Shown here in pieces: positions 2,105-56,200 of a DNA stretch of 64,000 nt. The notes beneath the pieces are model-generated. The model was not told the origin of the DNA. It saw nothing but the letters and a program-made list of their open reading frames with translations, and made no database searches. A program made the position numbers and the translations under genes. Source of the DNA: Membranipora membranacea. Taxonomy: Eukaryota > Bryozoa > Gymnolaemata > Cheilostomatida > Membraniporidae. Each line of letters begins with the position of its first letter. Within the stretch, counting starts at the first letter, position 1. The stretch covers positions 34,880,162 through 34,944,161 of the forward strand of contig OU612067.1 in NCBI GenBank assembly GCA_914767715.1, in the 5' to 3' direction.

Positions 2105-5100
2105 ATGGATATGATAAAAAGGGAGATAAAAACAGAGATAAGGTTTGTCTGTAAATTGTTAAATATATATATATATATATATGCCTATTTGAATCTCTGA
2201 CTTTCCAGGCTTAGGAAGAGGACAGATTGAATTGTAGGTTTGTAATTTGATGTCAGCTCAGCCTCCAATAGGCCTGTTTATGGTTCCGAGATAACTTGAC
2301 TTGAGTATGTCAACTGTTTCAGTTTGAAGCAAATGAAGCACAGCTATAAACTTCAAGTCATTAACCCCATCTGTGTCTCACATTTTAATCCAGCTGCAGT
2401 AGATATTTTACATTGTAGATCACCACAACATGAGAATGGACACAGGGGTCGTTCCAGGTCACGTTCAAGGTCAAGATCTCCTAACAGACGTAGCCGTCCC
2501 GTACAAAACAGAAGACTCTATATATCTAATATGCCATTTGATATGAAGTGGAAAGATGTAAAAGATTTATTCAAAGAGCAAGGTTGGTAACCCGATTACG
2601 TAATCAAGTTAACAAGTATTAATCTGTTCCTCAGCATGACCATCAGATTCAAGTGGGCTATTCACATGAGAATGGAGCTATATTGAGCAATGATCAAAAA
2701 GACTATTGGGGGTAATAGACTATTACTATGTTATACTATTGTTTGCTCCTGTGGTTTTATTGTTATTGTGTGCTGTGCTATACTATAAGATAGTATTACC
2801 TGTTACAGTGGGAGATTGTTATGTTACATTATATGAACGTCCTGATGGTAAATCTCTGGGTGCTGGACTAGTGGAGTTTAGAGATCTATCTAAAGCACAA
2901 GAAGCTGTAGATAAGATGAATAGATATGAAGTCAGCGGCAGAAAAATAATCGTCAGAGAAGTAAGTATCTCAGCTTATGTAGGTATATATCAGTATGTCT
3001 GGGTATATCTATCTGTATCTCAGCTTATGTAGGTGTATATCAGTAGCCTATGTATAGGTATATCTATCTGTATCTGAGTAGTATACTGAGCTATAACTGG
3101 ATCATGTCTCAGTCACATATCTGGCTCTCATCTCCCTCAGTAATATAGCCTCTTTGTGGCGCTCTGTGATACCCGTGGTGCGCCCTGTGGTTCCTGCGGT
3201 TTGTACTGTGACACCTGTGGTTTGTACTGTGACACCTGCGGTTTGTACTGTGACACCTGTGGTTTGTACTGTGACACCTGTGTTTTGTATTGTGACACCT
3301 GTGGTTTGTACTGCGTGTAGCGATATTTGTATGACCATAGTAATGTATCGAATGGTTTGTTACTCAGGAGACAGACAGAGACAGACGGAGACATGAGAAC
3401 GATAAGCCTGATGGGCGAGGAGGAGGCGGTGGAGGAGGCCGCAGTGGTGGGGGTGGAGATAGAGGGGGTGATATGAGAGGGGGACATCCTATGGACAGGG
3501 GTGGAGGTATGAACCTACCTATGAATCTACCACCAGGGGTAACTCCTCAGCTCCTTGGCTCACTCGGTATCAACGATGGACCAATCACTAATCAAGTATT
3601 CGTAGCAAATGTAAGTTATCTACCTGATTACTATAAGTGTCAAATGTAAGTTATCTACCTGATTACTATAAGTGTCAAATGTAAGTTATCTACCTGATTA
3701 CTATAAGTGTCAAATGTAAGTTATCTACCTGATTACTATAAGTGTCAAATGTAAGTTATCCACCTGATTACTATAAGTGTCAAATGTAAGTTATCTACCT
3801 GATTACTATAAGTGTCAAATGTAAGTTATCTACCTGATTACTTTAAGTGTCAAATGTAAGTTATCTACCTGATTACTATAAGTGTCAAATGTAAGTTATC
3901 TACCTGATTACTATAAGTGTCAAATGTAAGTTATCTACCTGATTACTATAACTGTCAAATGTAAGTTATCTACCTGATTACTATAAGTGTCAAATGTAAG
4001 TTATCTACATGATTACTATAAGTGTCAAATGTAAGCTCTGTACTCAATTATTATTATTATGCGTCATTTATATTAAGTAAAATGATTTAGAAAGTTTTAC
4101 TCTAGTATTTCCAGAATCATACTTTGGTAACATTTGTGCTTCTTGCGATGACACTCTATATGTTTGATATTAACAGCTGGACTACCGATGTTCAGAACAG
4201 AAACTAAAGGAGGTGTTCAGTATGGCTGGATCTGTTACTAAGGTAAGTCAGTGTAACCTACCTATGTATGTAGAGTTAGGTATTAGTGGATATAGCTGCT
4301 GATGTGGTGTCAGATAACAGTTCATATCAATCATATCAGATGATAGTAACTCCCAGTCATTGTATGTAAGGTAAGGCCAATCATATAACTCAGACCTTAA
4401 TACACCTCGGAGAAAGATAGAAAGTAAAGAGGTACATAACATATCCTATACACATTACGTATCCTACATGCAACACAACTGCTCTGGTAATAATTAGTTA
4501 TATTGATTAACATGTAAACTATACCGGTAGGTTACACTGTATGACTACAGATACTGTTTACTTATACTGTATAATTTGTATATTACAGCTGGAATGTAAG
4601 AACGATAAGGATGGTAAGTTTCGAGGTATGGCAGTCATAGCCTTTGAGACACCGATGGAAGCTCTACAGGCTATCAGTATGTTTAATGGACAGACTCTGT
4701 TTGACAGGAATATGTCGGTTAAGATGGACAAACTCGCTAATATGGAAGACAAGAAACCATCTCTACCAGGTAAGCGACTATTACCTGTACCAGTGTGGCT
4801 TCTGTCTCTCTAATCTTATGTGACAATCTTCTGTGTAATTTGGTGCAAAAACACATACTTTTTGTTGCTGGAGATCAAACCTAACATGATACATTTTCTC
4901 TTAACATGTAACACACCGCGTTGTATTCATTTAGTTATGATGAAAAATTTCTATGATTTAAAGGGATAATACACTTCTGATCTCTGTTTGGCAGCCAATG
5001 GAGCACAGAAAAATGTATGTACATACAAAAACTCCTTATTTGTAATTCAAAACCCCTTGTTCTGCTCAAATGTGCAGTCTAAATTGTAGTTGTGCATCTC

Positions 5101-8100
5101 CAACAAGAAATAAGACAACTAACAGAATTGCTTGTGATCTGAAAAAAGCTGATTTTGTGAGCAGTTGTGTGCTCCTACCTCTTGGTTAGTGTTTCAATTG
5201 TCCAGATACTCAAAGTGCGCATGTGCAATAAGGATGACCTTTTGACTTTAGCTTGTTATTTTCTAACAGCCCAGCTTAACACTTTTATTACCATAACCGG
5301 ATATGGTAATAAAAGTGTTAAGCTGGGCTGTTAGAAAATAACAAGCTAAAGTCAAAAGGTCATCCTTATTGCACATGCGCACTTTGAGTATCTGGACAAT
5401 TGAAACACTAACCAAGAGGTAGGAGCACACAACTGCTCACAAAATCAGCTTTTTTTAGATCACCAAGCAATTCTGTTAGTTGTCTTATTTCTTGTTGGAG
5501 ATGCACAACTACAATTTAGAATGCACATTTGAGCAGAACAAGGGGTTTTGAATTACAAATAAGGAGTTTTTGTATGTACATACATTTTTCTGTGCTCCAT
5601 TGGCTGCCAAACAGAGATCAGAAGTGTATTATCCCTTTAAGAAAAAAAAAATTTGATTCCAAACCTAAACAGAACAGATAAATCCATAGATAGACAAAGT
5701 AATGTAATAACTGAACCTTATGTATGCCTTCTATGGTACTGTGTTACTGTGACATATATAAATGATGTGTTATATTTACAGAGGGACTTAAAGGTATCGG
5801 CTCATCCCTACCCCTCGGAGGAGGGGGTGGTGGAGGAGGTATGGGGGGACCTCCTGGAGGATTTATGGGTATGGGAGGAGGCGGTGGTATGGGCTCAGGA
5901 GGAATGGGTAGTGAGTATCCCCTACATAATATACTATACATATATCAGTCCATCTCATGTGTTACATGCTTACATTAATCTTTTATCCTTGGTTGTATAA
6001 GGATGTATACCTCTCCCAGCACCCTCGGGTGTATACCTCTCATGTGTAGACAATGATGTTGTCATATCCCCCATCTGTCATATTGTGGTCAGTTGATCTT
6101 ACTTACATGTACAGATGTCACATTGGGTATTCTTGTCACACAATGCGTTTTATATACACTCTGATTGAATTTTTTATAGATATGGGAGGCGGCGGCGGTG
6201 GTTCCAATATGGGATCACTAGGCGGTATGTCAGGTGGTATGTCTGGTGGTATGGGAGGTCTTGGAGGAGGTAAGTCATACTCTACATATACTGTACTTAC
6301 TAAACTATATATGATATGATCTACATGTAAATGTCTAGCCTGTTTTAACAAGCTCTATTTGGTGCAACAAAGCTTGTCAATACATGGATAGATTTTATTT
6401 ATATTTGCTGCACGGAAGCTGTATGTGCTGGAGAGTTGAGCAAGCAGAAATCAGCCTCTTAGTAAATCCATTCATGACCCACACGTAATATATGTGTACT
6501 ATAAATAGCAAATTTATCACAACATATATATTTATATGTTTGCTGCTGGTTGTGTGTATGACATGACCTTCACCTCACCGCCTCTTCGCTCGATGTCATA
6601 CATATATACAACGAGGAGGAGGAGGAGGTATGTGTGTATGTATATGTGTGTGTGTATCTGACTGATTACAGGCGGAGGAGGCGGTATGGGAGGTATGGGA
6701 TCAGGCGGAGGTGGTATGGGTGCTATGTCTGCTATGTCAGCCTCAGGAGGAGATTATGGATCACCACTAGGAGGTCTGGGAGGGCTCTCAGGTGGAGGAG
6801 GACTCGGAGGGTCAGGAGGTTCTATGGGAGGACTCGGTGGTGCCTCATCAGGCTCTGCATTCGGAGGAATGGACAATATGGGCGGCTCTGGTCTCGACAA
6901 CCTCAACCTTAAAGGTTAGCTGTACATTCACAGTCATATCATCTACACTCTACAGCTACATCATCAGTAGTAGGCTACATTAGACACAGTTAGTACACAA
7001 GTACATAACCCAGCCAACAGTGACATATATCAGAGTGTACAGACAGATAAATGCCTCTACTGTATGATCTGTATATAATGTTAGCTGCCAGCCTTTCTCT
7101 CTCAGTCACCCATCACCATCACCATTACATGCTTAGTATAGTATAGTGTAGTTATGTTTGCTCTGTTTTATTTTAGGAATCGGTGACTTGAGTAGTTTTG
7201 CTTCACTGGCTGCTAATCTACAGAATAACCCTGAGGCGTTTAACACACTCAGTAACATGATGAATAACATCTCTGGAGGAGCCTCTATGGGAGGTGGAGG
7301 TGGTGGTGGTGGTATGCCAGGGGGTATGGGTATGGGTAAGTCATACAGTATATACATACATACAGTAATATTAAGCTCTCGTTAGTATTCAGCATGACAC
7401 TTCTCTTTTCACTGATTTTCAAAATAAGTCCGTGTAATAAACCATCTAGGATTCACCCTGTCCTGTATATATATATACCCAGTCATGTACACTGAGTTAT
7501 CGTGTTGCAGGTGGTGGTGGAGGAGGCGGGGTTATGAACTCTCGATCATACGGAGGGGGAAGAGATGATAGAATGGACAGGGGCGGAGGAATGGGGGGAG
7601 GTATGGACAGAGGAAGGAGATCGCCTATGAGGGACACTGGAGAGATTACCAGTGTGTTTGTCAGAAATGTAAGTTACGGTCATAAGACGTCGCTGAAACT
7701 GTGAATATCACTTTTCTGCAGTGATCTCACATGAGCGGACATAATAGTACCTTTAGTAATGTTACAACTGACCCCCAGTCAGTGTATCCCCTAATCATCC
7801 TCCTCCTTGTCCTATCTGATGACTGTATGTATGTTATGTGGTTGTATGTATGTTATGTGGTTGTATGTATGTTATGTGGTTGTATATATGTTATTATCAC
7901 TGTATGTATGTTATAATGACTGTATATATGGTATTATGACTGTATATATGGTATTATGACTGTATATATGTTATTATTACTGTATATATGTTATTATTAC
8001 TGTATATATGGTATTATGACTGTATATATGGTATTATGACTGTATATATGGTATTATGACTGTATATATGGTATTATGACTGTATATATGTTATTATTAC

Positions 8101-8966
8101 TGTGTATATGTTATTATGACTGTATATATGGTATTATGACTGTATGTATATTATGACTGTATGTATATTATTATGACTGTATGTACGTTATGTGGTTGTA
8201 GCTGCCGTTTACTTACACCTGGCAGATGATGAAGGAGACATTTAAAGCAGCCGGTGAGGTTCAGTATGCCGAGATAAAGAAGGATTCAGATAACAAGTCG
8301 AGAGGATTCGGTATAGTTAGGTTCTCTACTCCTGATGAGGCCAGAAGGGCAGTCAGTATCCTTATACACAACAAATAATCACATATAACCATTCTATAAC
8401 CATTAACAACCACTACAAGCCAGCTGTGTGCTGTTAGACCTAGTCATAGTCACAGCTAGTCATAAACTTAGCTTGAATCCACTGAATCCACTCATTATAC
8501 TACTAACCATTATTGTATTGAATTTACATGGAATTGTTCAATTCACCGAAAGAGAATTCATAGAGCAGTTTTGGCACTCTAGACGGTCAGTAGTCATGAA
8601 ATCCCCTCCCTCACTCCCACCATAGACCCTGATCCATAGACCCTGATCCATAGACCCTGATCCATAGACCCTGATCCATAGACCCTGATCCATAGACCCT
8701 GATCCATAGACCCTGATCCATAGACCCTGATCCATAGACCCTGATCCATAGACCCTGATCCATAGACCCTGATCAAGATCACTTATAATAGATTATTGAC
8801 ATTGATGCTCAGTTAAATACTGAGAGTATATATTCTAAGATAGTATATGTGGCTTGGATGTTTGACATGAAGGTTAGAAGTTTCCTTAGCTAATGTTTTA
8901 GATTTATTTAATAAGACGAGAGTGAACGGTCGAGAACTGGAGGTGAGACTGAATAATGTGAGATAG
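2105..8966 (+). CDS. hnRNP M / MYEF2-family RNA-binding protein (three RRMs, Gly/Met-rich linker)
   Basis: The spliced coding exons are 2105-2142, 2419-2582, 2809-2960, 3368-3610, 4177-4242, 4589-4769, 5782-5910, 6180-6269, 6672-6914, 7177-7335, 7511-7668, 8202-8355 and 8902-8966. All phases match and give 613 aa. The N-terminus has two SUMO-type motifs (IKRE, IKTE) and an Arg-Ser run. RRM1 (about 45-118) has LYISNM and KSLGAGLVEF; RRM2 (about 193-268) has VFVANL and KFRGMAVIAF; RRM3 (about 535-611) has VFVRNL and KSRGFGIVRF. Residues 282-534 are Gly/Met-rich. The order RRM-RRM-GM-linker-RRM at the extreme C-terminus, and AISMFNGQ in RRM2, are typical of hnRNP M, a nuclear regulator of pre-mRNA splicing. 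The start in exon 1 (AAAATGG context) is the least certain part. The last donor (GTATCC) is weak. Confidence 0.88.
2164..2182. repeat. AT dinucleotide microsatellite
   Basis: A short run of alternating AT lies in intron 1 of the hnRNP M-like gene. Confidence 0.9.
3181..3312 (+). repeat. 21-bp tandem repeat in hnRNP M intron 3
   Basis: About six copies of a 21-base unit containing TTTGTACTGTGACACCTG lie inside the intron, about 55 bases before the acceptor of exon 4. The unit does not include a splice site. Frames through it are chance products of the repeat. Confidence 0.85.
3606..4036 (+). repeat. 35-bp tandem array that starts at the exon 4 donor and duplicates it
   Basis: Twelve copies of a 35-base unit run from the exon-intron boundary (first intron base 3611) to 4030, with a further donor-like GTAAGC at 4031. 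Each copy contains CAAAT|GTAAGT, the same sequence as the real junction, so there are 13 consecutive candidate 5' splice sites exactly 35 bases apart. The copies are almost identical. Reading past the first donor reaches a TAA in the next copy, so only the first donor leaves the protein intact. Confidence 0.92.
4958..5640. mobile_element. 683-bp foldback element with TTAA ends (MITE-like)
   Basis: The stretch is a near-perfect inverted repeat: two arms of about 335 bases around a six-base loop at 5296-5301. Its outer ends read TTAAAGGGATAAT and the complement. TTAA at both ends fits TTAA-targeting (piggyBac-type) transposition, although TTAA is its own complement and so is ambiguous. It has no coding capacity. 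It lies in intron 6 of the hnRNP M-like gene (4770-5781), so the pre-mRNA would carry a very long hairpin. Confidence 0.8.
7795..8200 (+). repeat. tandem array leading to the exon 12 acceptor of the hnRNP M-like gene
   Basis: Repeats of about 20 bases built on ACTGTATATATGGTATTATG fill the intron. The edges carry TTATGTGGTTGTATG units that resemble the acceptor TTATGTGGTTGTAG at 8188-8201. The acceptor therefore looks like one member of the array whose AG has been kept. Confidence 0.8.
8624..8773 (+). repeat. 14-bp minisatellite in the last hnRNP M intron
   Basis: About ten near-identical copies of CCATAGACCCTGAT lie in intron 12 and do not touch a splice site. Confidence 0.9.
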
Positions 8967-11935: not shown

Positions 11936-12024
11936 GTAAGTCATGATAAATCTGAGGAGGATTACCATAGATTTACAGCACTGCGACTGTGTCTCACCAC
12001 TGTGACTGCCTGTCAGGCACTGTT

Positions 12025-17653: not shown

Positions 17654-20600
17654 ATTTAATTATGAGCCACTAAACGATCGTCATTATGGGACGACACAAG
17701 AACCTGGAGAAGGAAGCTGATAAGATTAGGTTTTCTCTAACGGAGAACGACCACGTTAAGTCGATGGTAGCTGAGATTGAGCTGCTCAGGACTGTATCTA
17801 ACTATCCACTTCTGTTTACAGCCGGACCTGTACTTAATAACGCTATCAGAAGGTGTGTAATACAGACATAAGTATATCTCTGTCTGTCTGTCTCTCTCTC
17901 TCTGTAACGCTATCAGAAGGTGTGTAATACACACATAAGTAAATCTCTGTCTGTCTTTCTGTCTGTCTGTCACAACATTAATATCTGAGGAGTTGCTTGT
18001 AACCATCTAAAGTTTGTCTTATTGAACTGTCTAATAAATGAATGTAATTTGGTTTAAGGTATGAGACGTTATTCCTGCCCGCTGTACAGAAGTCTCTTAT
18101 ATGTGAGGCTCTCTCAGCAGCTCCGCTGGATATCCAGTGGGTGTGGCATTGTCACATGCTCTCTCCTTATCATTATGAGCAGGATATGAGTAAACTAATC
18201 GGGCTAATACCTGATCACACCATACTACCGGCTGATTTACTACATGATAAACACAAAACTACTCATGGGACCTCCGGTCCATATGAGACGTCCGCTCAAG
18301 TCAGAAATATGTGGAATAGATTCGTTGAGGTGAGTAGATTCAGTTTTATGTATGTATTCTTTGTTGTTGTACCCTCCGATGTTTTTTTAGTTTTTTGTAA
18401 GAAAATATTGTTTTTCAAATAAAAACTTCTGGTTTAACAAATAAAGAAGTTTGAAAGTGTGAGTTTCAAGTAGAATGTTTCTCAGACGTTCTGTTATAGC
18501 GTGTCGTCCCTGAAGCTGTTATTGTTATGTTATGTTTGATAGGATGGAGAGCCGTTAGATGTAGATCTAAGAGTACCTGTAGAGTTCCCAGGAGGACCAG
18601 AGTATACATCTCAGTGTTCATATGATCTTATATCAGCAGTACATAGGCAGAGCTGCTTCTACTATAACGTCAGCTTACCTCACTATAGGAACGATCACTT
18701 CCTACATACAGCTATACACCGATATAAGGTTTGTAACAATTACCTACAATATACTGTCAGCTATACACAGGTATAAGTTCTGAAATAATTACCTACAATA
18801 TACTGTCAGCTATACACAGGTATAAGTTCTGAAATAACTATCTACAATAAACTGAGATATGAGATAAGACCCATATTTTACATTGTGTGACAGACCGCAT
18901 CACAAAGTAAGTGAAAAGTTGGCTCTTAGACTGAAAAGATTTAGCTTCGGGTACTCATGTACTTCTTATGATATAAATCCTATAATTATAACATGTTTAG
19001 TGTAGTAATCCACTACCACTACTCCTGGGCTTTATCAGCGCAGAAGTAGCCTTGTTCACGCGGTCACAAAAAAACCAAAACCCGTGGCCGCGTGAACAAG
19101 GCTAGTGCAGGAGGCTGACACAAGTACTGTATATTACAGCTAAAGCGTTTATCGTGTAAACTGATAACCAAAGAACTTGAATCAAAATATTTTTCGTAAA
19201 CAACTATTATAAGGAGTTTATATGTTCACCCTTAGGTATCAAATGGCCGTAAATAGCAACGTCAACAAATGTGTGAGTCTCTACTATAGGTCAAAGTCTG
19301 TTACTGGTGTATAATTTCTGTGATCGACATCAAATTAGTCTGGTCTGGTTCTTTTTATTGTTTAACAATAGTGTGTGTCAGTGAATCAGTTATTATACGT
19401 GCAATCCCCTGTATACAATCAAATTAGTATATAGAGAATGTTGGAGTGGAGGTTAAAGGGAGGTTAAAATACCAGAACCGTCTGTCTCTTACACAACATT
19501 GTTGCTGAGTTTTATAACTTCTCGTCTCTCACATGCCATGTGCTCGGATTACATGAGTGTTCCTGTAATATCGTGTTACATGATTACATCTGAGTTATTT
19601 TGGGTATTGAACTGCCTAAGTATTAATTTTGTCTGCTGAGGATCATCAATAATTATAGAGTTGAGCAGCGATCATCACATCTATGACCTATATGATAACC
19701 TTGAAAGTGGGTACCTGCATATAGTTCATGTATTGATGCACCAACAACTGCCTGCAAACAGTTATTATTGCTGAAAGCGTAATGTCTATTATTATTACCC
19801 ACAAAACCCTCTGAGATGCGCCTAAGCTATCATCACAATTGAATCGATGGTGTTGATATTTGTCTATCCCAGATTAACTTCTGTGTTCTCAAAACATGCT
19901 CAATATCATGTGGTGAGATCTTAGGGCCACAATCACACAAAACACAGCAAGCTCTCCGTATCACACTGGCTTATATAGTGATATTTATGGCTAGCCACAC
20001 TTAGTCAACATCATTACCAGCCATAATGAACACTGAATAGAAACTCCCACCTAGTGAAAAGTGGTGCTAGCTAACAAAGCACTTAAAACTAGCTAAACTA
20101 AACACTAGCTGATATTTTTCATCTAGGATATATGTAACATATCTCACATATGGTATTATTGTATTATCCTAACCTATTCTATTAACCTATTCTATGCTCT
20201 ATGAGATGAGATGAGATGTTCACTTTGATTATATAGATGATGTTGAGACTGAAGTTGTCTCACCCAGAGGCGTTTGTTGTTCCGTGTTATGATATGGACC
20301 TGGCCTGGCATACTCATCAACTTCATCCTCATCTATATAAAAAGGATACTACAGAATATCTCGGCAAGGTTAGTAGTCGCTTAACACACGTACATACAGT
20401 ATGAGATGGACTATAAACCTAACATACAGTGTAAACTATAGACCTGACATATGGTATGAACTATTGACTTAAACGTACAGCCTTGCTTTGCTCACATGAA
20501 TTGTGCGGCAAGTATTTTGGTGATATCCTAATATAATCCTAATTCTCTTCCCCTGCCTGTCGTATCATTGGCAGATATCTTCCCTCTGATATTAAAGATT

Positions 20601-23600
20601 ATCTGCATTTGGAGGTCCCTGGTAGTATATCTAACACAATATTTGGATTCTCTATGTCTTTTTACATCTCTTTTTCATGGGAAGAAAACACCAACAGAAA
20701 ACAACCAATTTTCTGCTTGTAACATAGCAACAGTGGTAATGTTACTTTCGCCAATACGTAATTCTGAAGGAGGGATTCCCAAATAAAAAGTTTTCTAACC
20801 AATAAAGTCAGCAGTTCCAGGTTATTATTCCTCACAGAATGGTCACAGAGATTTGGAACTTGGACTCCAGATGTAAAAAGACATGGGGAATCCAAATATT
20901 GTGTTAGATATACTCCCAATGCAGATAATCTTTAAGTGGCTTACTCTTATGTATAATAGCAGGAGAATAAGCATAAGTGGTTTGACTACATGGACATTGA
21001 TTAATCTGATATGCAACTTAGCAAAAAGCCCAACGTTGTTATGTGACGGGCGCAGCTCTATTTTGTTGAGCGACTGGTGCAGCTCTATGTTGTTGAGCGA
21101 CTGGCGCAGTTCTATTTTGAGCGACTGACGCAGCTCTATTTTGAGCGACTGGTGCAGCCCATTAACATATAAATAAGTATTTATATGTTTATGGTTTTGA
21201 CGCAGCTCTATATTTGTGATACATCATGTTACAGAGCTGTGTATACTGTAAATGTTACAGATGTTTAATCATGATGATAATATGACAGATAGAGGACCAG
21301 GATCACACCTGGCTAAGTCTCAGGCTATCACTCAGTCTCTTTGGTCTGCTGATTATAACTGTAACCTGGCTCTGAGCGGTGCCATGTACCGGGGATTATC
21401 ACCTGTCGGCAAACTAGGCTATATGTATCCACAAGAGGTTTGTCTACTATCATCGAAAGTAGAAACACCATCCGGCACCAGATATTCTTATTAAAACTCT
21501 CATATCATCGAAATAGCGCCCATTTATTTACTACAAGTATGACTTAGGGCTACCATGAATAGTGAATAAGACTCATAGACATCATAAATATACAGAGATG
21601 AAACTGTTCTTATCGCAGACCATTTCTAGGTCTTATTTACTTGGTTCGGAAATTCTGATTATTATGCCATATCAGATATTGTCTCTCAAACATTACATCA
21701 ATGACCATTGACCATGGCCATGACCATTGCCAATGTCATTTCTTTAATTACGAAACAAACAGATGAGGCTCTAGATTATTCCTACAGGAGGATGGAGTAG
21801 CTAATCAGATATTTCATCTGAACCTCGACTCCCTCAGTGCTGATCACTCTGCTGCTGCTAAGATGAAACTTGTCTTCTCTCTAAACGGGAAAACTGTATA
21901 CAAGAAAAAAATTAAACAAGATAAATACAAACATTTCAACTTCGGCTCTCATCAGGTGAGATTATATTATGTTCTGTGTCCTCTTGGTGTCACTCTGTGT
22001 CCTCCTTGTGTCATACTGTGTCCTTCTTGTGTCATAATGTGTCCTCTTAGTGTCACTCTGTGTTCCACTGTGTCACACTGTGACTTCTTGGTGTCACAAT
22101 ATGTTGCACTGTGTCACACTGTGACCTCCTTGTCTCACACTGTGTCCTACTTGTGACATACTGCTTCCTCCTTGTGTCACACTGTGTCTTCCTTGTGTCA
22201 CACTATGTTATTCTTGTGTCACGCTGTGTCCTCCTTGTGTCATACTGTGTCCTCCTTGTGTCACACTATGTTGCACTGTGACACACTGTGACCTCCTTGT
22301 CTCACACTGTGTCCTACTTGTGACATACTGCTTCTTCCTTGTGTCACACTATGACCTTCTTGTGTCACACTATGTCCTTCTTGTGTAACACTGTGTCCTC
22401 CTAGTGTCACCCTGTGTCCTCCTCGTGTCATAATGTGTCCTTCTTGTGTAACACTGTGTCCTCCTTGTGTCACACTGTGACCTCCTTGTCTCACACTGTG
22501 TCCTACTTGTGACATACTGCTTCCTCATTGTGTCACACTGTGTCTTCCTTGTGTCACACTATCTCCTTCTTGTGTGACACTGTGTCCTCCTTGTCTCACA
22601 CTGTGTCCTACTTGTGACATACTGTGTCCTCATTGTGTCACTCTGTGTCCTCCTTGTGTCACACTCTGGATAACAATGAACTGATGGTTATTATTACAGC
22701 GTAAACTTACTCTGTATGATCACGGCAGCGGCATTATGATGCTGACTCTGACTCAGACTCCAGCTGGATTCTGCGCCTCCTCTGAGCGAGAAGGAGATAT
22801 CACCAGAGATTTATCTCAGTATATCAGGAGGGGAATCACTGGTGGGCAGGAGATCAACATCACACAGACTATCAACAAGTCTAACTTTACTCTCAATGGT
22901 GGGTAGAGTTAGTATCACGCTTATAGTATTAGTAGGTAGTGTCAATATATGGTCTCACGTTCGGGTGTAACACATATACATATAAATACATATTCATATG
23001 TATATGGTCTAAGCTCAGAGTCTTAGAGTAACACCTCGTCTGTTTGTCGCTCATTAAAAACTCATCGTTTCTAATATTTTTTTTTTTATGTGTGTGTGTG
23101 TGTTTATTGCTTACTATAAAAACTAGAATGAGTAAAACGGTATCAAAGGTATATAAAAAGTTAAAAAGCAATGGGACAGTCAGATAGCACGAAGCTAGAG
23201 CAGAGACTGCCCGACTAGAACTCTTGACGCCACACTCGCCTGCCGGAACGACAGAGCGAAACATCCGCAACCTGCACACAATCAATCCCCTCCCACAGGC
23301 GCGCCGCCAGGCCACCCAAGGAACCAGACTGAGTACATGTCTCCACTCCCATAAGGTACCTGTTGTACAGGTTGACACCATGGCACAACAGGGACCTCTC
23401 ACCTCGCTTGTTTTTGGCCTTTTTTGTTCGTAAATTATTTAATCTTGTGTTATAATCATGATCTGATTTAAGAGAGTTGATAAACTCATTCGAAAATGTT
23501 CTTAAAAATAGTTTTAAAGAGCAGTATTGGAATAGCATATTCAAAGGCATTATATTTAAAGTCTTAAAAATGGTTGAAACATGATCTCTGGTTTTTTTCT

Positions 23601-42700: not shown

Positions 42701-45700
42701 ATGGATTTTGTGGCTGATTCTCTTCTACCGAAGATTGATACAACTCTGATCTCTGCAGTGTATGTGGGGGAGAAACAGAGAGTTAGAGTGAACATCAATG
42801 GGGAGGTAAGATCCACTACGTTTGTACCTCGTATCCTAGCGTGAGAAGTTAGATGGACATTCTTTTTAATGGTACATTCTCTGTACATATATCAATGATC
42901 AAAGGCTCAGTTTGAGTGATGATGCGCTGATGATCCGGGATGGACGGTGAGCGCCGAAGTTATCACCGGAGCAGCTTAGACGCTAATAAAGGCTGCAGGT
43001 TTTTTTTACTCAATCATCAATCATAATAAGCTCATAGATTTTATTCTCTCCTTACAGGGCCTGGAGTACCCACTAGAATGGCTCAGATTTAACTGTCAGT
43101 GTAAGAAATGCTTCAATGCTATCTGTCAGAGCTTCATCATGTCATTTAAACCTTTTCTAACCCAAGTCACAACTCTTCTATCTGTAGAAGTAAACAAGGT
43201 AGGTTTTAGTACATCTAACCAGTTACTACTTGATCTAGCTATAGCTTGGTGCTTGTTTGGTGTTGGGTTTATGACATTAAACTGAGTACTAAGTCGAAGG
43301 TCAAATAGATCGTAGAAATTTTATCAGAATATCGCAATTATGTTTTTACCAACTATTCTCAATCTTGAAATCTGATAAATCTTATTGTCTGTCGCTGAGT
43401 GAGTGATTTCTTATTGATAATGAAGGAGAATTGGATGAAGTAACAGGCTAGACAATGTAGCACATATTAAAATCTACAATGATGAGTTAGATGGCTTATA
43501 TTATGTCAAGAGAAGTTATCTGTAGCATATGAGTGCCTTCTAGAACAAGTTTGATCCAATTTGCCGCAGCCTGGTCTACAAGTAAGCCGGTGACTCGAAC
43601 CAAACTCAAGGCAAATTGGATCATGTTGATCTAAATGCCATCCCTGTGATATTTCCATCATTATTTTCCATTATATAAGTTTTATTTCTCCCATAATGCA
43701 AGAAAATCTCACAATAAACTATAACTGTCCAACTCAGATAATTATTGTGGGGTCACTGCTAGTATCAATTCATTTTCCCTTTTTATGACAAGCTAAGTTA
43801 TTTTTGATCTTAATTATATTGGTTATCATGTTATATGAATTTATTGTGATGCTGCTGTAATGCGCCCCGGGACTCGCTAGAAAACTCTTTTACCACCTCA
43901 TGTCTCTCGTTGTTATCTTCGCCCTGTTTTGGGTCAGATGTGATTAAGTTATTCTCTGTCTGTTTTTCTTATTTATTGTTGCTGTACTTTCAGTCTGATA
44001 ACACATTGAGAGTTGTCTACTCAGATGATCATGTGACTGAGGTCACTGCTGATTGGCTGTATAAAAGACGCCTTACTGAGGAGGGAAAGGAGGAAAGAAA
44101 AGAACTGATAAAGATAAGAAAACCTGTAATATGGGGGGATAATCACCGTGTGAAAAAACAGAGTTATGACAAGGTAAAGGATCCTGTATTAACTCATATA
44201 TATGACTCTTTACGTAACTCCTCATGTAATAAAGAATACTTACAGACTAAACCATTTTATAGTCAGGCAGTAAGCACCTGAGCAAGGGGGACAATTTCTA
44301 ATGCTATCCATAATTTTTAAGGAGAGGGCAGCTTTGAATCTTGCACTGTTGAAATCTTAAATAAGTACAGCGGTCCATACTGCCTGCCTATGTAATGCTT
44401 CGGTCTGTTTAAAGAGCTAACTCCTAAGTCTGTGTGAGGACAGAGGAGCTAATTCCTCGATCTGTGCAAAGAGCTAATTTGTTACTGTGGGTAAATTATT
44501 GTCAATTATTATACTGGGAGTGAGATTAAATAGGTAAGTATAACAGCTCACCGGTGTGAGAGTAGCTTATCCATATGTTACTTGTTTATATTTTAGGTGA
44601 CGGCGATGGGCAGTGGATTTATAGAGTTTGGGGAGACACTGGCTAAGGATGGTATATTTGTGATTACTGATACTCCTGACAGATTGGTATTCAATGAGTT
44701 TGTAGAGAAGACAGGACTGCCTGTTCAGTTCTCTCATTATGGGTGAGCAGAGCTAAATCAGCAAACTAATACTCTTATATGGATTGTTAGATAGTCATTG
44801 TGGGTTCGACATAAATAACTCATATTACGATTGCCGGCTGCAGACAATACTGGATAGAGTTTGATGCAATTTGCCAAACGCAAAAAAAGTTATAGTCACG
44901 AGACATATTCAGCTGTAGGTAGCGCTTTTGGGTTTGTGACATTCGCTTAGGTAAAAAAAATTAGGAGTCCCATGCCAAAAAACATATTTTTCTATTTTCC
45001 ATAGTTTACATAACTTCACAAACCATGCTCTGAAATTGGAGCATTTCATACACGTTTATCTGTTATAGAGTGATTAAGAGAGGACAACTTTAGCGGTTGA
45101 CAAAATGTAAGAAGAATTTTAATTCCAATAAAGCTAATAGTTTCAACTGTGTCTGTGGGCTATTTAACGTGCTGCCACAGTGCTCTTAATTAGCTTGAGA
45201 CCGTAAATATGTTACAAAATATAGATATGCGCTAGCTACTATAGTTTTAGCAGTAAGACACAGTCGAGTGAGTAAATAAGCTGTTTAGTCCCTTAAATTA
45301 AGTCAAGAGATTTGTTTCAGTTGGCGTGCCAAAAATAATTGCAGCCCCTAAACTGTAAACCAGAAATCGGTGAATACATGGAGCCCAACTTTAGCCTGAG
45401 TTTAGTTATCTAGCTGTAGGTTCGTCCCTAGATTATATAAATTGGTTTTTGACATCTCAAAATGTTTCTGATTTTCTAGGGATAGTTGGGTAGTGGAGAA
45501 CTCACCGACCCCAACCAACCATGCATACACAGCTGTGGAGCTCGAGCTACATGTCGATCAACCATATTTGGACTCTTGTTTGGATGTGAGTGTCATGTTT
45601 ACGAGAAGATCTCTCTCCCTCTACCAATTGGTGATTTATCAGGGTGGAACCTGTGTGTAGCGTGTATTGTAATACTGCAACCTCATTATATACTGTGATG

Positions 45701-48700
45701 CACTTTGAATGACCTATGGGTGTAAAACATTTTCTCAATCAAAATTCTGGTGTGACAAATAATATTCATGTAGCTGTTGTCTAATCTAGTCACTTGTATC
45801 TAATAACCCTTACTGCATTGGGTGTTATCTGATATGATAAGTTGTGTACTCCTACCTAACAGATACAGTACTTACACTGCATGGCTCAGGCAGATGAGGG
45901 AGGAGAGAGCGTTATGTCTGACGGACTGAAGGCAGCACAGATATTACGTCAGAGATATCCAGAGCACTACAACACGCTGACTACTGTGTGTATAGAGTAT
46001 GAGGATGTGATCGGGCATAGCACACACGGTAGTAAGAACTACATGGCTAGTAATACTCCCGTTATATTGTGAGTATGTTATATGGCTAGTAATACTCCCG
46101 TTATATTGTGAGTATGTTATATAGCTAGTAATACTCCCGTCATATTGTGAGTATGTTATATAGCTAGTAATACTCCCGTTATATTGTGAGTATGTTATAT
46201 GGCTAGTAATGCTCCCGTCATATTGGGAGTATGTTATATAGCTAGTAATACTCCCGTTATATTGTGAGTATGTTATATAGCTAGTAATACTCCCGTTATA
46301 TTGTGAGTATATTATATAGCTAGTAATACTCCAGTTATATTGTGAGTATGTTATATAGCTAGTAATACTCCCGTTATATTGTGAGTATGTTATATAGCTA
46401 GTAATACTCCAGTTATATTGTGAGTATGTTATATAGCTAGTAATACTCCCGTTATATTGTGAGTATGTTATATAGCTAGTAATACTCCCGTTATATTGTG
46501 AGTATATTATATAGCTAGTAATACTCCAGTTATATTGTGAGTATGTTATATGGCTAGTAATACTCCCGTTATATTGTGAGCATGTTATATGACTAGTAAT
46601 ACTCCCGTCATATTGTGAGTATGTTATATAGCTAGTAATACTCCCGTTATATTGTGAGTATGTTATATGGCTAGTAATACTCCCGTTATATTGTGAGTAT
46701 GTTATATAGCTAGTAATACTCCCGTTATATTGTGTGTATGTTATATGGCTAGTAATACTCCCGTCATATTGTGAGTATGTTATATAGCTAGTGATGATCA
46801 TGGTTGCTGTCCCTCTATGTAGACGATGACTGCACCGAGGTGCAGGCTAGGGAGAGGTTTTTATAGTGACGAATAGATTTCCAAGTCGTTAGTGTCACTT
46901 TTCAACCACTGAAAGCTTTAACTCAGCGTGAAGCATAAAGCTACAAGGCCGGAGCTGCAGTGGTTGATGACAGCAACCTCCTGTATAGAGCTATACCATA
47001 CAGGAGGGTTCTTTCATCTGCACGCACGATGTTGTTGTGCATACAGAAGACCTCCAATATTTTAAGTCCCGTTATATTGTGAGTATGTTATATGGCTAGT
47101 AATACTCCCGTTATATTGTGAGTATAAGGCCAACAACCCTAACATGTATGCTGTTTTGCATAGGGTGGCGATGTTGGAGTGGGTGGACTGTGCTATGGTG
47201 CTATGTGCGATTGGTGCCACAGGAGTTGTGGGTTTTAATTTCATTGGGGGAGCTTTCAAGGTTGATTGTGCCAGCCCCCAGCACCCTCAGGTGTATACCT
47301 CTTCTGTGTACTCGTCTTCTGACTGACTCATGGAAAGACTTGTGACAGCATGGAAAGTCAAGCTGACAAACAGGAAAAACAGCTAAAACTCACTATAAGG
47401 GGTCCCAGCAATGGGCCATGTAAGGCCAACAACCCTAACGCGTACACTGTGTTGCATAGGGTGGCGATGGTGGAGTGGACTGTGCTATGGGACAATTGGA
47501 CGATTGGTGCCGAAGGAGTTGTGGGTTCTAATCCCATTGGGGGAGCTTTCAAGGTTGATTGCTCCAGCCCCCAGCACCCTCGGGTGTAAACCTCTTCTGA
47601 GTATACCAGCTGTTTGGATATGATAATATTAATACTACATACTCGGTGCTGATTATGATTGCAGGTTAGACAGAGAAGGAGAGCCGGAGTTTCTCAGGAT
47701 AAATCTACTTTGTAGAAGTAGTTTCTTTAACGGACCAGTAGAAGACTGGGAGAAACTATTTCCTGCCTTAAAAGAACTCATGAAAATACTTCAGCAGTGT
47801 TCCGTTGTCTTCAAGAATATGCCAGGTATGCTCTCTGTAGTTAGCAGTAATATAAGTCACAGATAATTGTTATGATTGTAGGAGACAGACGCTATATCTG
47901 GTATTGGGCATATATAATTTTGTTATGATTGTAGGATATATTATATAGTATAGTTATGATTGTAGGATATATAGTATTTTTATGATTGTAGGAGATATTA
48001 TATAGTATAGTTATGATTGTAGGAGATATTATATAGTATTGCTATGATTGTAGGAGATATTATATAGTATAGTTATGATTGTAGGAGATATTATATAGTA
48101 TTGCTATGATTGTAGGAGATATTATATAGTATAGTTATGATTGTAGGAGATATTATATAGTATAGTTATGATTGTAGGAGATATTATATAGTATAATTAT
48201 GATTGCAGGTGATATTATATGGTATTGCTATGATTGTAGGAGATATTTTATAGTATAGTTATGATTGTAGGAGATATTATATAGTATAGTTATGATTGTA
48301 GGAGATATTATATAGTATAGTTATGATTGTAGGAGATATTATATAGTATAGTTATGATTGTAGGAGATATTATATAGTATTGCTATGATTGTAGGAGATA
48401 TTATATGGTATTGCTATGATTGTAGGAGATATTATATAGTATAGTTATGATTGTAGGAGATATTATATAGTATAGTTATGATTGTAGGAGATATTATATA
48501 GTATAGTTATGATTGTAGGAGATATTATATAGTATTGCTATGATTGTAGGAGATATTATATGGTATTGCTATGATTGTAGGAGATATTGTATAGTATAGT
48601 TATGATTGTAGGAGATATTATATAGTATAGTTATGATTGTAGGAGATATTATATAGTATAATTATGATTGCAGGTGATATTATATGGTATTGCTATGATT

Positions 48701-49051
48701 GTAGGAGATATTTTATAGTATAGTTATGATTGTAGGAGATATTATATAGTATAGTTATGATTGTAGGAGATATTATATAGTATAGTTATGATTGTAGGAG
48801 ATATTATATAGTATAGTTATGATTGTAGGAGATATTATATGGTATTGCTATGATTGTAGGAGATATTATATAGTATTGCTATGATTGTAGGAGATATTAT
48901 GGTGTTTGATAACCAGAGAATATTACACGGGCGTCAGTCTTATGTATCTACACAGAGACGTAGATTAGAAGGATGGTACAGCAACTGGGACTCACTTCTC
49001 TCTCAACTCAGAGTTCATAAGATCAAGAATATGAGTAAACTAATCGACTAG
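42701..49051 (+). CDS. BBOX1: gamma-butyrobetaine dioxygenase-like Fe(II)/2-oxoglutarate oxygenase
   Basis: Exons are 42701-42805, 43058-43198, 43994-44269, 44597-44742, 45480-45585, 45863-46068, 47665-47825 and 48891-49051, giving 433 aa (human BBOX1 is 387). The family hydroxylates gamma-butyrobetaine to L-carnitine. The N-terminal zinc domain has C48, C50 and C53 in WLRFNCQCKKCF and H95 in YSDDHVTEVTADWL. The catalytic domain has iron ligands H247 and D249 (ELELHVDQP) and H393 in FDNQRILHGRQSY, with Arg following. All key residues are present, so the enzyme should be active. There is no mitochondrial presequence, which favours BBOX over trimethyllysine dioxygenase, but substrate cannot be proven. 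Introns 6 and 7 are filled by arrays that duplicate the exon 6 donor and the exon 8 acceptor. Confidence 0.87.
43541..43637. mobile_element. short MITE in dioxygenase intron 2
   Basis: CTAGAACAAGTTTGATCCAA at the left pairs with AATTGGATCATGTTGATCTA at the right. The same arm occurs in the composite element at 15.9-16.1 kb. It has no coding capacity. Confidence 0.6.
46043..46792 (+). repeat. 39-bp array carrying the dioxygenase exon 6 donor (about 19 copies)
   Basis: The unit contains the last 26 bases of exon 6 (ATGGCTAGTAATACTCCC...) plus the donor ATATT|GTGAGTATG. Two more copies lie at about 47066-47125 after an interruption. Most donors are intact; a few are changed (GGGAGT, GTGTGT, GTGAGC). 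Although 39 is a multiple of three, TGA follows the first junction in frame, so reading on would stop at once. Confidence 0.92.
46816..47025 (+). ncRNA. U3 snoRNA-like segment, possibly a pseudogene
   Basis: The block that interrupts the donor array contains TTTTTATAGTGACG (compare the U3 box A region), AGCTTTAACTCAGCGTGAAG (very close to the conserved GAGCGTGAAGC of U3), a C-box-like TTGATGA and then a stem CTCCTGTAT...ATACAGGAG, ending in CATCTGC where a D box (CTGA) would be expected. Order and length (about 200 bases) fit U3, the C/D snoRNA of 18S rRNA processing. The imperfect D box and its placement suggest a retroposed or dead copy. The match rests on memory of consensus elements only. 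Confidence 0.3.
47127..47600 (+). mobile_element. two tandem copies of a SINE-like repeat
   Basis: A unit beginning AAGGCCAACAACCCTAAC recurs at 47127 and 47423 (296 bases apart). Each contains a GTTGTGGGTTCTAATCCCAT-type stretch close to the RNA polymerase III B box (GGTTCGAATCC) and a tail with CCCCCAGCACCCTC. A clear A box was not found. Related pieces lie at 60385-60500 and 6011-6050. This fits a tRNA-derived SINE family. It sits in intron 6 of the dioxygenase-like gene. Confidence 0.5.
47866..48890 (+). repeat. 31-bp array carrying the dioxygenase exon 8 acceptor (about 33 copies)
   Basis: Each unit contains TTATGATTGTAG|GAGATATTAT, identical to the true 3' splice site at 48890/48891. 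The array starts shortly after the exon 7 donor and ends exactly at exon 8. Reading from most upstream copies gives GAGATATTATATAG, an early stop, so the last acceptor is the productive one. Blocks of several units recur as higher-order repeats. Confidence 0.93.
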
Positions 49052-50228: not shown

Positions 50229-53200
50229 TCAGCTATTCACAGAGCCAGTTTTCACATACAATGATATGGTGCTGATATATTTGACTAATGATAGAGAATT
50301 CTCCCAGGCAGAGATAAAAGTCTCAACAGGGTCCACACTCAGACTAGAGCAGAGGGTGTCGGGAGGGGGACTAAGTGAAGATAACTCCTCACTAAGATAA
50401 TATATAGCTTCAGAGAAGAGATCATTATTAGCTTCTGTACCTGTAAAATCGTCAGAAGGCATATATCTGAGTAAATAAGTGTGAGAAATCTGAGCAAGAC
50501 AACTCTAGAACCCAGGCTATGCATTCTTATTGATCAACATAATAAGTTAATGAGAGCATCATGGTGAACACCTCGGACAACTCAAAATTTTCCTCCGCTT
50601 CGGACCACTTTCCAGTTCCCACTCATCAACACCCGATCGCTCACCCGATCGCTCACCCGATCCCTCACCCGATCCCTCACCCGATCCCTCACCCGACCCC
50701 TCACCCATACGTGATCAAGTTTAATACAGTTGGCTACTTTTAGAGTTTTTCCCTCTACTGATAGCCCGGGAAATTCAAAGCATGATCTTAGGCCATACTA
50801 CTGGAGCGCTGCTGGGGTTTGAGGGACACAACTCCAGATACAAACCAATTGGATAAGACTCAATCTAATGAACACTCACATCTAAAGCAGGTGTTTGGTA
50901 AATAATAAGGAGTAACTTACTGTGTGTAGTGTTGATGAGTTGAGATGATAAATTATATAGAGGTAAGTTGATAAGGCACTTCTGTGATGATATTATACTG
51001 AGAAGTCTGGAGAGAGAGTGATTGAATCTCTCAGATAATATCTCACATTCATATCGCACAGGGCTGCATATCACTACCGTCTACAATAGAGAGCGTATAG
51101 GTCCTAGATAGGGAATACATTAGAAGTACCCCACTTGCTGAGATTTAAAGAAAATTTTACATGCTAAGATAAAGAGATGGCTTAATATTAAATATTATAT
51201 TAAATATTATAATTAAAAGTTTACCACTTTAGATTGTTGAATGTCTGCCACACTACAAGGTATAGATAGCCTGATGAGAGAAGAGGATTTCCTGCTGGTA
51301 CACGACAGCTCTGACCTTGATATGGTTAGTTTTGATGTAAATCGCTGAAACAAAATAAAATATTATAACAGTATAAATAGCATGTCCAGCACATAGACTG
51401 GTATACCGCAGGAGCCAAATAGTTACAAGAAGTTGTACATTCACAAAGAGGGTGTATGAGATCTATACAGTAAGTTATTTTAGTAACATGTCCTTAGATG
51501 ATGACGGCCACAGGTGGCTAGTTTGAAGTATGTCAAGTGTCACTGAAAGCCTTAGGCTGTAAGTTATGACGATAGTTCTATTATCATAACTTACCTCATA
51601 AACATAATGTATATAATATAACCTACTTCGTGTGAATCATGTATAAAATATAACTTATCTCATGTACATCATGTATATACTATAACTTACCTCGTGTACA
51701 TCATGTATATACTATAACTAACCTCATGTACATCATGTATATACTATAACTTACCTCGTGTACATCATGTATATACTATAACTTACCTCGTGTACATCAT
51801 GTATATACTATAACTAACCTCATGTACATCATGTATATACTATAACTTACCTCGTGTACATCATGTATATACTATAACTTACCTCGTGTACATCATGTAT
51901 ATACCATAACTTACCTCGTGTACATCATGTATATACTATAACTAACCTCGTGTACATCATGTATATACTATGACTTACCTCGAGTACATCATGTACATAC
52001 TATAACTTACCTCGTGTACATCATGTATATACTATAACTAACCTCATTTACATCATGTATATACTATAACTAACCTCGTGTACATCATGTATATACTATA
52101 ACTTACCTCGTGTACATCATGTATATAATGTAGTATAGGAGATGATGTGAGATGAGTGATATGAGTTAGTACAGAGTGAGGTATATTCTCTAATACTTCT
52201 CCTCCTCTAATCTCTAAGTGTACATCATGTATATACTATAACTTACCTCGTGTACATCATGTATATACTATAACTTACCTCGTGTACATCATGTATATAA
52301 TGTAGTATAGGAGATGATGTGAGATCAGTGATATGAGTTAGTACAGAGTGAGGTATATTCTCTAATACTACTCCTCCTCTAATCTCTAAGTGTACATCAT
52401 GTATATACTATAACTTACCTCGTGTACATCATGTATATACTATAACTTACCTCGTGTACATCATGTATATAATGTAGTATAGGAGATGATGTGAGATGAG
52501 TGATATGAGTTAGTACAGAGTGAGGTATATTCTCTAATACTACTCCTCCTCTACTCTCTAAGTGTACATCATGTATATACTATAACTTACCTCGTGTACA
52601 TCATGTATATACTATAACTTACCTCATGTACATCATGTATATACTATAACTTACCTCATGTACATCATGTATATACTATAACTTACCTCGTGTACATCAT
52701 GTATATAATGTAGTATAGGAGATGATGTGAGATGAGTGATATGAGTTAGTACAGAGTGAGGTATATTCTCTAATACTACTCCTCCTCTACTCTCTAAGTG
52801 TACATCATGTATATACTATAACTTACCTCGTGTACATCATGTATATACTATAACTTACCTCGTGTACATCATGTATATAATGTAGTATAGGAGATGATGT
52901 GAGATGAGTGATATGAGTTAGTACAGAGTGAGGTATATTCTCTAATACTACTCCTCCTCTAATCTCTAAGTGTACATCATGTATATACTATAACTAACCT
53001 CGTGTACATCATGTATATACTATAACTTACCTCATGTACATCATGTATATACTATAACTTACCTCGTGTACATAATGTATATAATGTATTATAGGAGATG
53101 ATGTGAGATCAGTGATATGAGTTAGTACAGAGTGAGGTATATTCTCTAATACTACTCCTCCTCTAATCTCTAAGTGTACATCATGTATATACTATAACTA

Positions 53201-56200
53201 ACCTCGTGTACATCATGTATATACTATAACTTACCTCATGTACATCATGTATATACTATAACTAACCTCGTGTACATCATGTATATACTATAACTTACCT
53301 CGTGTACATCATGTATATACTATAACTAACCTCATGTACATCATGTATATACTATAACTAACCTCATGTACATCATGAATATACTATAACTTACCTCGTG
53401 TACATCATGTATATACTATAACTTACCTCGTGTACATCATGTATATAATGTATATACTATAACTTACCTCATGTACATCATGTATATACTATAACTTACC
53501 TCGTGTACATCATGTATATACTATAACTAACCTCGTGTACATCATGTATATACTATAACTAACCTCATGTACATCATGTATATACTATAACTTACCTCGT
53601 GTACATCATGTATATACTATAACTTACCTCGTGTACATCATGTATATACTATAACTTACCTCATGTACATCATGTATATACTATAACTAACCTCGTGTAC
53701 ATCATGTATATACTATAACTAACCTCATGTACATCATGTATATACTATAACTTACCTCATGTACATCATGTATATACTATAACTTACCTCGTGTACATCA
53801 TGTATATACTATAACTTACCTCGTGTACATCATGTATATACTATAACTTACCTCATGTACATCATGTATATAATGTAGTATAGGACATGATGTGAGATGA
53901 GTGATATGAGTTAGTACAGAGTGAGGTATATTCTCTAATACTACTCTTCCTCTACACTCTAAGTTATACTTCAGTATTCTGTCACAGTAACCAGTCATAA
54001 GTACACACTCTATACCTGACTGTAACCGTAATAACACATTTTATATTAATGAGAATTGTGGTCCTGATAGAAAGGCAAGGTTCCGGTTTCAGACTAGTTA
54101 TGTAGGTCTACAGGAGTTGCTTATTCAACATCAATGAGGGGACAACTCTCACATAATACCGGACTGAGATTTAGACTAACCTGTATCAGTGTTTTATAAG
54201 CTGTATCACACCAGTTACTGTCTGTGTGTCTAACGTCTCCCTGTCGGGTTTCTCCATGTCTGGGGTGTGTAAGGAGATAATCACTAGAGTTTATTACTCT
54301 GTGATGTTTCACAGCCTCCTTATAACCAGTATGTGTAAACTCTGATGTTAAATCACCCTGAAACATCTGTGAAAAAGTGAAAGGTAAAAAATAATCTTAC
54401 AGCGATTCTCACGAGCAGAAAGGTGGCTATGGATTAGTGTTAACCAGTTATTCGTATGAATAAAAATCACTTATCAATTATCTTTAGGTAAACAAGACTG
54501 ATTGCATTGAATCTTTTGTTTCCCGACATGACATCCTAAAACCTTGCAGTCAATCTAACATGAGGAGAGTAATGTGGAGTATTAGTTGTGAGGAGAGTAA
54601 TGTGGAGTATTAGTTGTGAGGAGAGTATTGTGGAGTATTAGTTGTGAGGAGAGTAATGTGGAGTATTAGTTGTGAGGAGAGTAATGTGGAGTATTAGTTG
54701 TGAGGAGAGTAATGTGGAGTATTAGTTGTGAGGAGAGTAATGTGGAGTATTAGTTGTGAGGAGAGTAATGTGGAGTATTAGTTGTGAGGAGAGTAATGTG
54801 GAGTATTAGTTGTGAGGAGAGTAATGTGGAGTATTAGTTGTGAGGAGAGTAATGTGGAGTATTAGTTGTGAGGAGAGTAATGTGGAGTATTAGTTGTGAG
54901 GAGAGTAATGTGGAGTATTAGTTGTGAGGAGAGTAATGTGGAGTATTAGTTGTGAGGAGAGTAATGTGGAGTATTAGTTGTGAGGAGAGTAATGTGGAGT
55001 ATTAGTTGTGAGGAGAGTAATGTGGAGTATTAGTTGTGAGGAGAGTAATGTGGAGTATTAGTTGTGAGGAGAGTAATGTGGAGTATTAGTTGTGAGGAGA
55101 GTAATGTGGAGTATTAGTTGTGAGGAGAGTAATGTGGAGTATTAGTTGTGAGGAGAGTAATGTGGAGTATTAGTTGTGAGGAGAGTAATGTGGAGTATTA
55201 GTTGTGAGGAGAGTAATGTGGAGTATTAGTTGTGAGGAGAGTAATGTGGAGTATTAGTTGTGAGGAGAGTAATGTGGAGTATTAGTTGTGAGGAGAGTAA
55301 TGTGGAGTATTAGTTGTGAGGAGAGTAATGTGGAGTATTAGTTGTGAGGAGAGTAATGTGGAGTATTAGTTGTGAGGAGAGTAATGTGGAGTATTAGTTG
55401 TGAGGAGAGTAATGTGGAGTATTAGTTGTGAGGAGAGTAATGTGGAGTATTAGTTGTGAGGAGAGTAATGTGGAGTATTAGTTGTGAGGAGAGTAATGTG
55501 GAGTATTAGTTGTGAGGAGAGTAATGTGGAGTATTAGTTGTGAGGAGAGTAATGTGGAGTATTAGTTGTGAGGAGAGTAATGTGGAGTATTAGTTGTGAG
55601 GAGAGTAATGTGGAGTATTAGTTGTGAGGAGAGTAATGTGGAGTATTAGTTGTGAGGAGAGTATTGTGGAGTATTAGTTGTGAGGAGAGTAATGTGGAGT
55701 ATTAGTTGTGAGGAGAGTAATGTGGAGTATTAGTTGTGAGGAGAGTAATGTGGAGTATTAGTTGTGAGGAGAGTAATGTGGAGTATTAGTTGTGAGGAGA
55801 GTAATGTGGAGTATTAGTTGTGAGGAGAGTAATGTGGAGTATTAGTTGTGAGGAGAGTTTTGTTGGGTATTGTTCGGTCTGCACTCACCACACTCCTGAC
55901 TGAACAGCTGTGATCAGTGAGTAGTTGTGATGTCGCCTCAGTACATCTGAGCACTATACCATCTAATATACATGAGTTAGCTGAGAGAGGCCCTACACAT
56001 GATACCACAGTTATATCACTGAGTGATTTACTGGTTAGATTATCAGAAGCTCTTAGCTTACTGATTATCTGATGTAGTAAATCTGTGATGAGAGGATCAT
56101 CTCTAGCTAAAGCAGCTGTGAGATCTGAGACGGTTATATCGGGAGGTATAACTGTCATGTAGTCAGAGTGAGAGAATCTATCATCTAATGGTTCTACTGT

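Follow-up and report, generated by a model that had tools for sequence, protein, structure and literature searches.

Why do tandem repeats in one small part of a bryozoan genome so often lie across the border between an exon and an intron? The locus is a stretch of 64,000 nucleotides (hereafter the window) of Membranipora membranacea contig OU612067.1, in which splice signals and open reading frames served to build models of four genes by hand: hnRNP M, a GRDP-like gene, a gamma-butyrobetaine-dioxygenase-like gene (BBOX-like) and a BBS12-like chaperonin gene. The reading frame was open in all four models, and the 77 splice junctions comprised 38 donors, all GT, and 39 acceptors, all AG. Tandem Repeats Finder (TRF), run on the whole window, gave 50 rows, or 37 arrays after overlaps were dropped. 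Eight of the 37 non-overlapping arrays contained a splice junction; they occupied 8 of the 77 junctions and occurred in all four genes. We consider it probable that they are nearly neutral minisatellites straddling the junction, of the kind called "mirages" in amphioxus, and that they are tolerated since splicing takes the site nearest to the exon.

Each of the eight arrays (Table 1) had one edge 5 to 73 nt within an exon, while the remainder extended through the intron. Six spanned donors and two spanned acceptors, and the junction had no fixed place within the unit, which held 5 to 73 exon nt. Together they made up 10,686 of the 33,831 intron nt of the four genes. The largest left only 63 nt of the 5728-nt GRDP intron 8 outside its 154 copies. 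Copies ranged from nearly identical to decayed, as the first-pass annotation of this DNA had described. A scan for periodicity at the 77 junctions, independent of TRF, ranked the same eight first. Twelve of the 77 scored higher than 99% of 600 control positions in non-coding sequence, the last four weakly: these were the junctions near the arrays at 2965-3075 and 7819-8191 and the acceptors of hnRNP M exons 7 and 10. The two arrays were rejected as junction-spanning because they end 4 and 10 nt before the junction. Control scores reached 62.5, more than the 51.5 (control P 0.005) of GRDP exon 1, which scored lowest among the eight.

Nine boundaries had been listed in the first-pass annotation as bearing such arrays. 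Both TRF and the period scan recovered eight, with the unit sizes given there; the ninth, the GRDP exon 10 donor, is followed by a single decayed copy of the exon tail that lacks a donor. This copy reached a gapped score of 21, against a maximum of 15 in 500 randomised introns, and an ungapped scan score of 10 (control P 0.018). The hnRNP M boundary had been assigned to exon 4; the array does span that donor, and the exon is the third in our model, in which no upstream exons, including the 5' end, were found. The constant gene orientation of the repeats adds no evidence, because direct repeats that span a junction have it by definition.

Table 1. Arrays at splice junctions, the decayed copy at GRDP exon 10 and the gene models (window positions)
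Feature	Position	Junction	Strand	Description
hnRNP M donor array	3606..4035	3610	+	35-bp unit: last 5 exon nt, then donor and rest of 30 intron nt; 12 full copies
GRDP exon 1 donor array	17838..17968	17852	+	67-bp unit, 2 copies; 15 exon nt in unit
GRDP exon 3 donor array	18709..18854	18728	+	49-bp unit, 3 copies; 20 exon nt
GRDP exon 8 acceptor array	30075..30531	30458/30459	+	91-bp unit, 5 copies; 18-20 nt of intron end and 71-73 exon nt
GRDP exon 8 donor array	30599..36286	30621	+	37-bp unit, 154 copies; 23 exon and 14 intron nt
GRDP exon 10 tail with one decayed copy	36788..36879		+	31-nt copy at +61, ending at exon end, without donor
BBOX-like exon 6 donor array	46046..46792	46068	+	39-bp unit, 19 full copies; 23 exon nt
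BBOX-like exon 8 acceptor array	47911..48900	48890/48891	+	31-bp unit, 32 full copies; 21 intron and 10 exon nt
BBS12-like exon 7 donor array	51586..53872	53851/53852	-	32-bp unit, 21 exon nt; six whole copies of 105-nt exon 7 interspersed
hnRNP M gene	2419..8966		+	12 exons modelled; Pfam RRM_1; chain 2do0
GRDP-like gene	17686..37996		+	12 exons; Pfam PF07173; homologues in other animals
BBOX-like gene	42701..49051		+	8 exons; Pfam TauD; BBOX chain 4bg1, E 5.5e-41
BBS12-like chaperonin gene	50229..58470		-	10 exons modelled; sub-threshold Cpn60_TCP1 match

The eight units were unrelated across genes. Their sizes ran from 31 to 91 bp, and they had only words of 8-9 nt in common, apart from one AT-rich match of 14 nt (E 1.3e-4) between the BBS12 unit and that of the GRDP exon 8 donor, in opposite orientation. 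These comparisons bear out the earlier view of a process rather than a single repeat family, and on the same grounds a dispersed repeat or intron-generating element (introner, transposon) forming one family at many loci was rejected. The 37-bp unit had no matches in the viral contig collection.

The exonic portion of the unit encodes residues alignable to proteins of other animals in seven of the eight arrays, all but that of BBS12. Chain 2do0 aligned without a gap across the array-bearing splice of hnRNP M, the alignment of BBOX chain 4bg1 crossed both array-bearing splices of the BBOX-like gene, and aligned homologues covered the ends of GRDP exons 1, 3 and 8; we take both chains to be human. 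The coding part of the 37-bp unit at the GRDP exon 8 donor was conserved in the Watersipora protein P0004. Since the exon part is conserved coding sequence in these seven cases, the exons are the source and the arrays the product, rather than exons having been recruited from arrays.

If the splice site is copied many times, which copy is spliced? The frame stayed open only with the copy nearest to the exon in all eight arrays, when two frame tests were combined. The first placed sites at exact multiples of the period in seven arrays, positions that drift where indels occur. The second used the real positions of the sites in seven arrays, including the BBS12 donors; GRDP exon 3 was covered by the first test only. 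Two sites that are not copies, a GT at 30639 and the AG before 48894, lie near the real ones and also keep the frame. With a donor matrix built from 32 other donors, the real donor was equalled or surpassed by 11/11, 146/151 and 15/18 of the copies in three arrays and by 0/1 at GRDP exon 3. With many copies as strong as the real donor, strength cannot guide the choice of site.

A protein from outside the window bears on the BBOX-like gene. P0001 (339 amino acids), whose source label, lgn, we take to mean Logan, comes from a 1189-bp contig and is contained without a mismatch in the spliced BBOX model, whereas the corresponding DNA of the window spans 5913 bp. It implies the use of the first of 19 donors at exon 6 and of the last of 32 acceptors at exon 8. 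P0001 probably represents a spliced message; a processed gene copy is less likely. The open-frame tests, the donor strengths and P0001 all fit the suggestion of the first-pass annotation that the arrays are tolerated since one functional site is always kept. A database study reports that sites closest across the exon are preferred where the flanking introns are large and sites closest across the intron where introns are short (PMC9225289). The first of these rules may be the one acting at these arrays.

The events that we propose are as follows. A local tandem duplication would by chance take in a splice site along with the exon end before it or the exon start after it. The array would then grow by slippage or unequal exchange, on the intron side because only the copy adjoining the exon must be kept. 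Under exon definition, the spliceosome would pick the site with the shortest distance across the exon and ignore equally strong copies, and extra copies that are ignored would leave the array close to neutral. With time the array would decay, having contributed much of the length of its host intron.

Whether junctions carry more arrays than chance would place there was examined with sizeable arrays (period at least 20, score at least 100; n = 20). When one seed unit was placed anywhere not wholly exonic, 1.03 arrays were expected to span a junction and 8 of 20 did (P 1.8e-6). When whole arrays were relocated such that no whole exon was covered, the mean was 2.7 (P 0.0036), or 3.5 for the loosest set of 32 arrays (P 0.020). 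In the strictest null, each seed was placed only within its own host intron, from which the present array length had been removed; 2.94 of 15 intronic arrays were then expected to span a junction, against 8 seen (P 0.0014). This null weighs most because 9 of the 13 host introns are short outside their arrays, retaining only 52 to 277 nt. Three other array cut-offs gave P values of 0.0003 to 0.0037, and leaving out one gene gave 0.016 (BBOX), 0.003 (BBS12) or 0.0002 (hnRNP M). The excess over the strict null is real and moderate. It suggests that exon ends are, in addition, favoured starting points or anchors for duplication.

One account of this excess is that junctions are fragile or prone to slippage, through R-loops, paused polymerase, nucleosome edges or short GT-rich or CT-rich runs at intron ends, and that duplications start there. 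Beyond the excess itself, four more arrays with scores of at least 100 (2965, 7819-8191, 21974 and 54561-55858) come close to a junction, at distances of 4.5 to 30.5 nt, but do not include it. Tandem arrays of all kinds also cover introns far more than other sequence: 14,411 of the 33,831 intron nt of the four genes (43%), against 1,347 of 22,548 nt (6%) outside them, where unmodelled genes are possible. Against this, short introns already put many arrays near junctions, and six donors and two acceptors are too few for judging a bias between the two. Seeding biased towards junctions seems to us a distinct possibility, with somewhat less than an even chance of being right.

Tolerance might instead suffice by itself. 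Duplications would arise evenly, exonic ones would be purged, those at junctions would survive through the one kept site, and short introns would make overlap with junctions frequent. The shortness of most host introns outside their arrays agrees with this, as do the variable position of the junction within the unit and the seven of 15 intronic arrays that span no junction; about three of the 15 would be expected to span one without any bias. The eight observed depart from that expectation under both the strict null and the relocation of whole arrays, and we regard tolerance alone as rather unlikely. Nearly neutral growth with splicing at the exon-proximal site explains most of the pattern, but not the junction excess.

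Several points weigh against the reading of the arrays as tolerated, nearly neutral mirages. Even seeding with tolerance predicts fewer than half of the junction arrays seen, and uniform neutrality is in this respect insufficient. The strict null gave only P 0.044 once GRDP was left out, and the sample is one window, picked since the pattern had been noticed there. Evidence of the RNA type concerns two of the eight arrays and has a processed copy as a possible source; the other six rest on open frames. Lastly, at BBS12-like exon 7 the frame does not single out one exon: each of six exon copies (6/6) can replace exon 7 with the frame open, and all seven joined in a row are open as well.

These copies lie in BBS12-like intron 7, where the 32-bp units carry 34 GGTAAGT and 14 GGTTAGT donors, the real one included. 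Among them are six extra copies of the 105-nt exon 7, each open, preceded by AG and followed by GTAAGT. Such copies might serve, or come to serve, as alternative exons, and their flanks and the frame that they keep, singly and together, speak for this. Their codon changes do not: each of the six differs by 3-6 non-synonymous changes against one synonymous change, which gives no sign of purifying selection. Upstream of the exon, sequence shared with the real acceptor extends over no more than 8 nt, which means that the pyrimidine tract was not duplicated along with the exon. As a cluster of mutually exclusive or alternative exons, they show the open frame and not the coding constraint, and a supply of exons is improbable as the explanation. 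Used or not, the copies show how exon material can multiply.

Mean column divergence in the exon and intron parts of the unit was 0.000 vs 0.011 in hnRNP M, 0.014 vs 0.000 at the GRDP exon 8 acceptor, 0.038 vs 0.015 at the GRDP exon 8 donor, 0.021 vs 0.036 at BBOX exon 6 and 0.028 vs 0.054 at BBOX exon 8; across these five arrays the difference had no consistent sign that would indicate coding constraint. The splice dinucleotides were intact in 12/12, 153/154, 18/19, 5/5, 32/32, 1/1 and 1/2 full copies, counting the real one; at GRDP exon 3 the second full copy has no donor. Yet 12 of 37 column pairs in the 154-copy array and 12 of 31 in the 32-copy array were conserved as well as or better than the dinucleotide pair, and 27/35, 31/39 and 85/91 in three other arrays, so that the column-pair comparison showed no special maintenance of splice sites in the five arrays. 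A role as decoy or regulatory sites, selected to tune splicing rate or isoforms and raised in the first-pass annotation, would agree with dinucleotides kept in nearly all full copies and with copies as strong as real donors, but is very improbable, as the dinucleotide pairs are no better conserved than many other column pairs, a donor is missing from one copy at GRDP exon 3 and any other site copy breaks the frame.

The gene models differ in how firmly they can be named. The best of 86 matches of the GRDP-like protein was from the cheilostome bryozoan Watersipora subatra, which covered 56% of the query at 50% identity; in the alignment of the two proteins the figure was 275 of 580 columns. A tree built from the window protein and 11 named proteins picked from the 86 matches (12 rows) paired the two with a support of 100/100. 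A start of GRDP exon 9 at 36308 was rejected for a start at 36350, since it added residues absent from homologues; the query used in the homologue and Pfam searches still ended in about 12 residues of the rejected start. The BBS12-like protein matched Pfam Cpn60_TCP1 below the cut-off (E 3.3e-7, 29.8 bits, cut-off 34.3) and, weakly, thermosome and T-complex proteins (best E 0.031), and a homologue search with its C-terminal part as the query gave none. The name BBS12 is likely, not proven, and exon 7 is a predicted exon, placed by its open frame and splice signals alone.

Further repeats were seen in the window. GRDP intron 7 holds a retrotransposon of the long interspersed nuclear element (LINE) type (22929-29876, minus strand) in several separate frames, one matching reverse transcriptase (PF00078, E 1.2e-34) and another resembling an endonuclease at 21.8 bits, under the cut-off of 24.5; a search with its protein found no relative in the genome contig collection. 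Between the endonuclease-like and reverse-transcriptase frames lies a 24-bp array of 26 copies (27615-28239), through which a minus-strand frame (27474-28313) is open. In BBS12-like intron 5, a 28-bp array of 46 copies with a 99% match (54561-55858) starts about 30 nt into the intron and does not span the donor. In hnRNP M intron 5, a nested fold-back (4944-5654) has 165-nt arms (99%, no spacer) inside 191-nt arms (96%), and its structure resembles a fold-back element or one of the miniature inverted-repeat transposable element type. A separate inverted repeat (16651-16761) has 54-nt arms of 96% identity and a 3-nt loop.

Is this a new kind of structure? The first-pass annotation knew of no described system of this form, but one has been described in amphioxus. 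Mirages are minisatellite-like repeats across exon-intron boundaries, found in Adh3, the globins BflGb6 and BflGb9, PGBD5 and troponin C (PMC3087553, PMC3902484); the second of these papers treats PGBD5 and, by citation, Adh and troponin C as mirage-bearing. Amphioxus mirages and the window arrays alike consist of tandem copies of exon-intron boundaries, either 5' or 3', occur in genes unrelated to one another, and have splice signals in many copies with regular splicing kept. In the window, the unit includes exon, intron and boundary at eight of the nine named boundaries, units differ between genes in sequence and length, and undisturbed splicing is indicated by P0001 for two arrays and by open frames for the other six. 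Length instability is a feature reported for the amphioxus mirages. The differences are the bryozoan host, the presence in all four modelled genes and at 8 of 77 junctions in one 64-kb window, the size of up to 154 copies and 5.7 kb, and the whole-exon copies within one array.

Two other systems are related. In human genes within segmental duplications, internal tandem repeats at exon-intron boundaries can change splicing (PMC2812944). These too are minisatellites with units of about 30 bp that sit at boundaries and alter gene structure; they can make new introns or splicing patterns in recent paralogues, whereas the window arrays keep the original site as far as tested. The Rogers model (cited in PMC3087553) explains intron gain by duplicated AG/GT proto-splice sites. 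It shares with the window arrays the duplication of sequence bearing splice sites, but yields new introns, whereas the eight cases here are growth of existing introns and no new intron was seen.

Among the matches listed from the open-licence literature, no paper on boundary-repeat arrays in bryozoans was found. The arrays belong to a known kind, the mirages, and are probably new for the phylum Bryozoa; their density and size and the whole-exon copies in one intron look new relative to mirages. By this finding, mirages of the amphioxus type seem not to be peculiar to cephalochordates. A bolder proposal, which we think unlikely as it stands, is that in Bryozoa minisatellites arise preferentially at junctions and that arrays anchored there are a main source of intron length: the selected exon-proximal copy would be a permanent, renewing template, and added copies would lengthen the intron, favour exon definition and so make further copies harmless. 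At a density of 8 in 77 junctions, the growth of introns through duplicated junctions could be counted across the whole genome. The arrays also form a natural experiment in splice-site choice, in which up to 154 donors compete, the majority no weaker than the real one, and position is left to decide.

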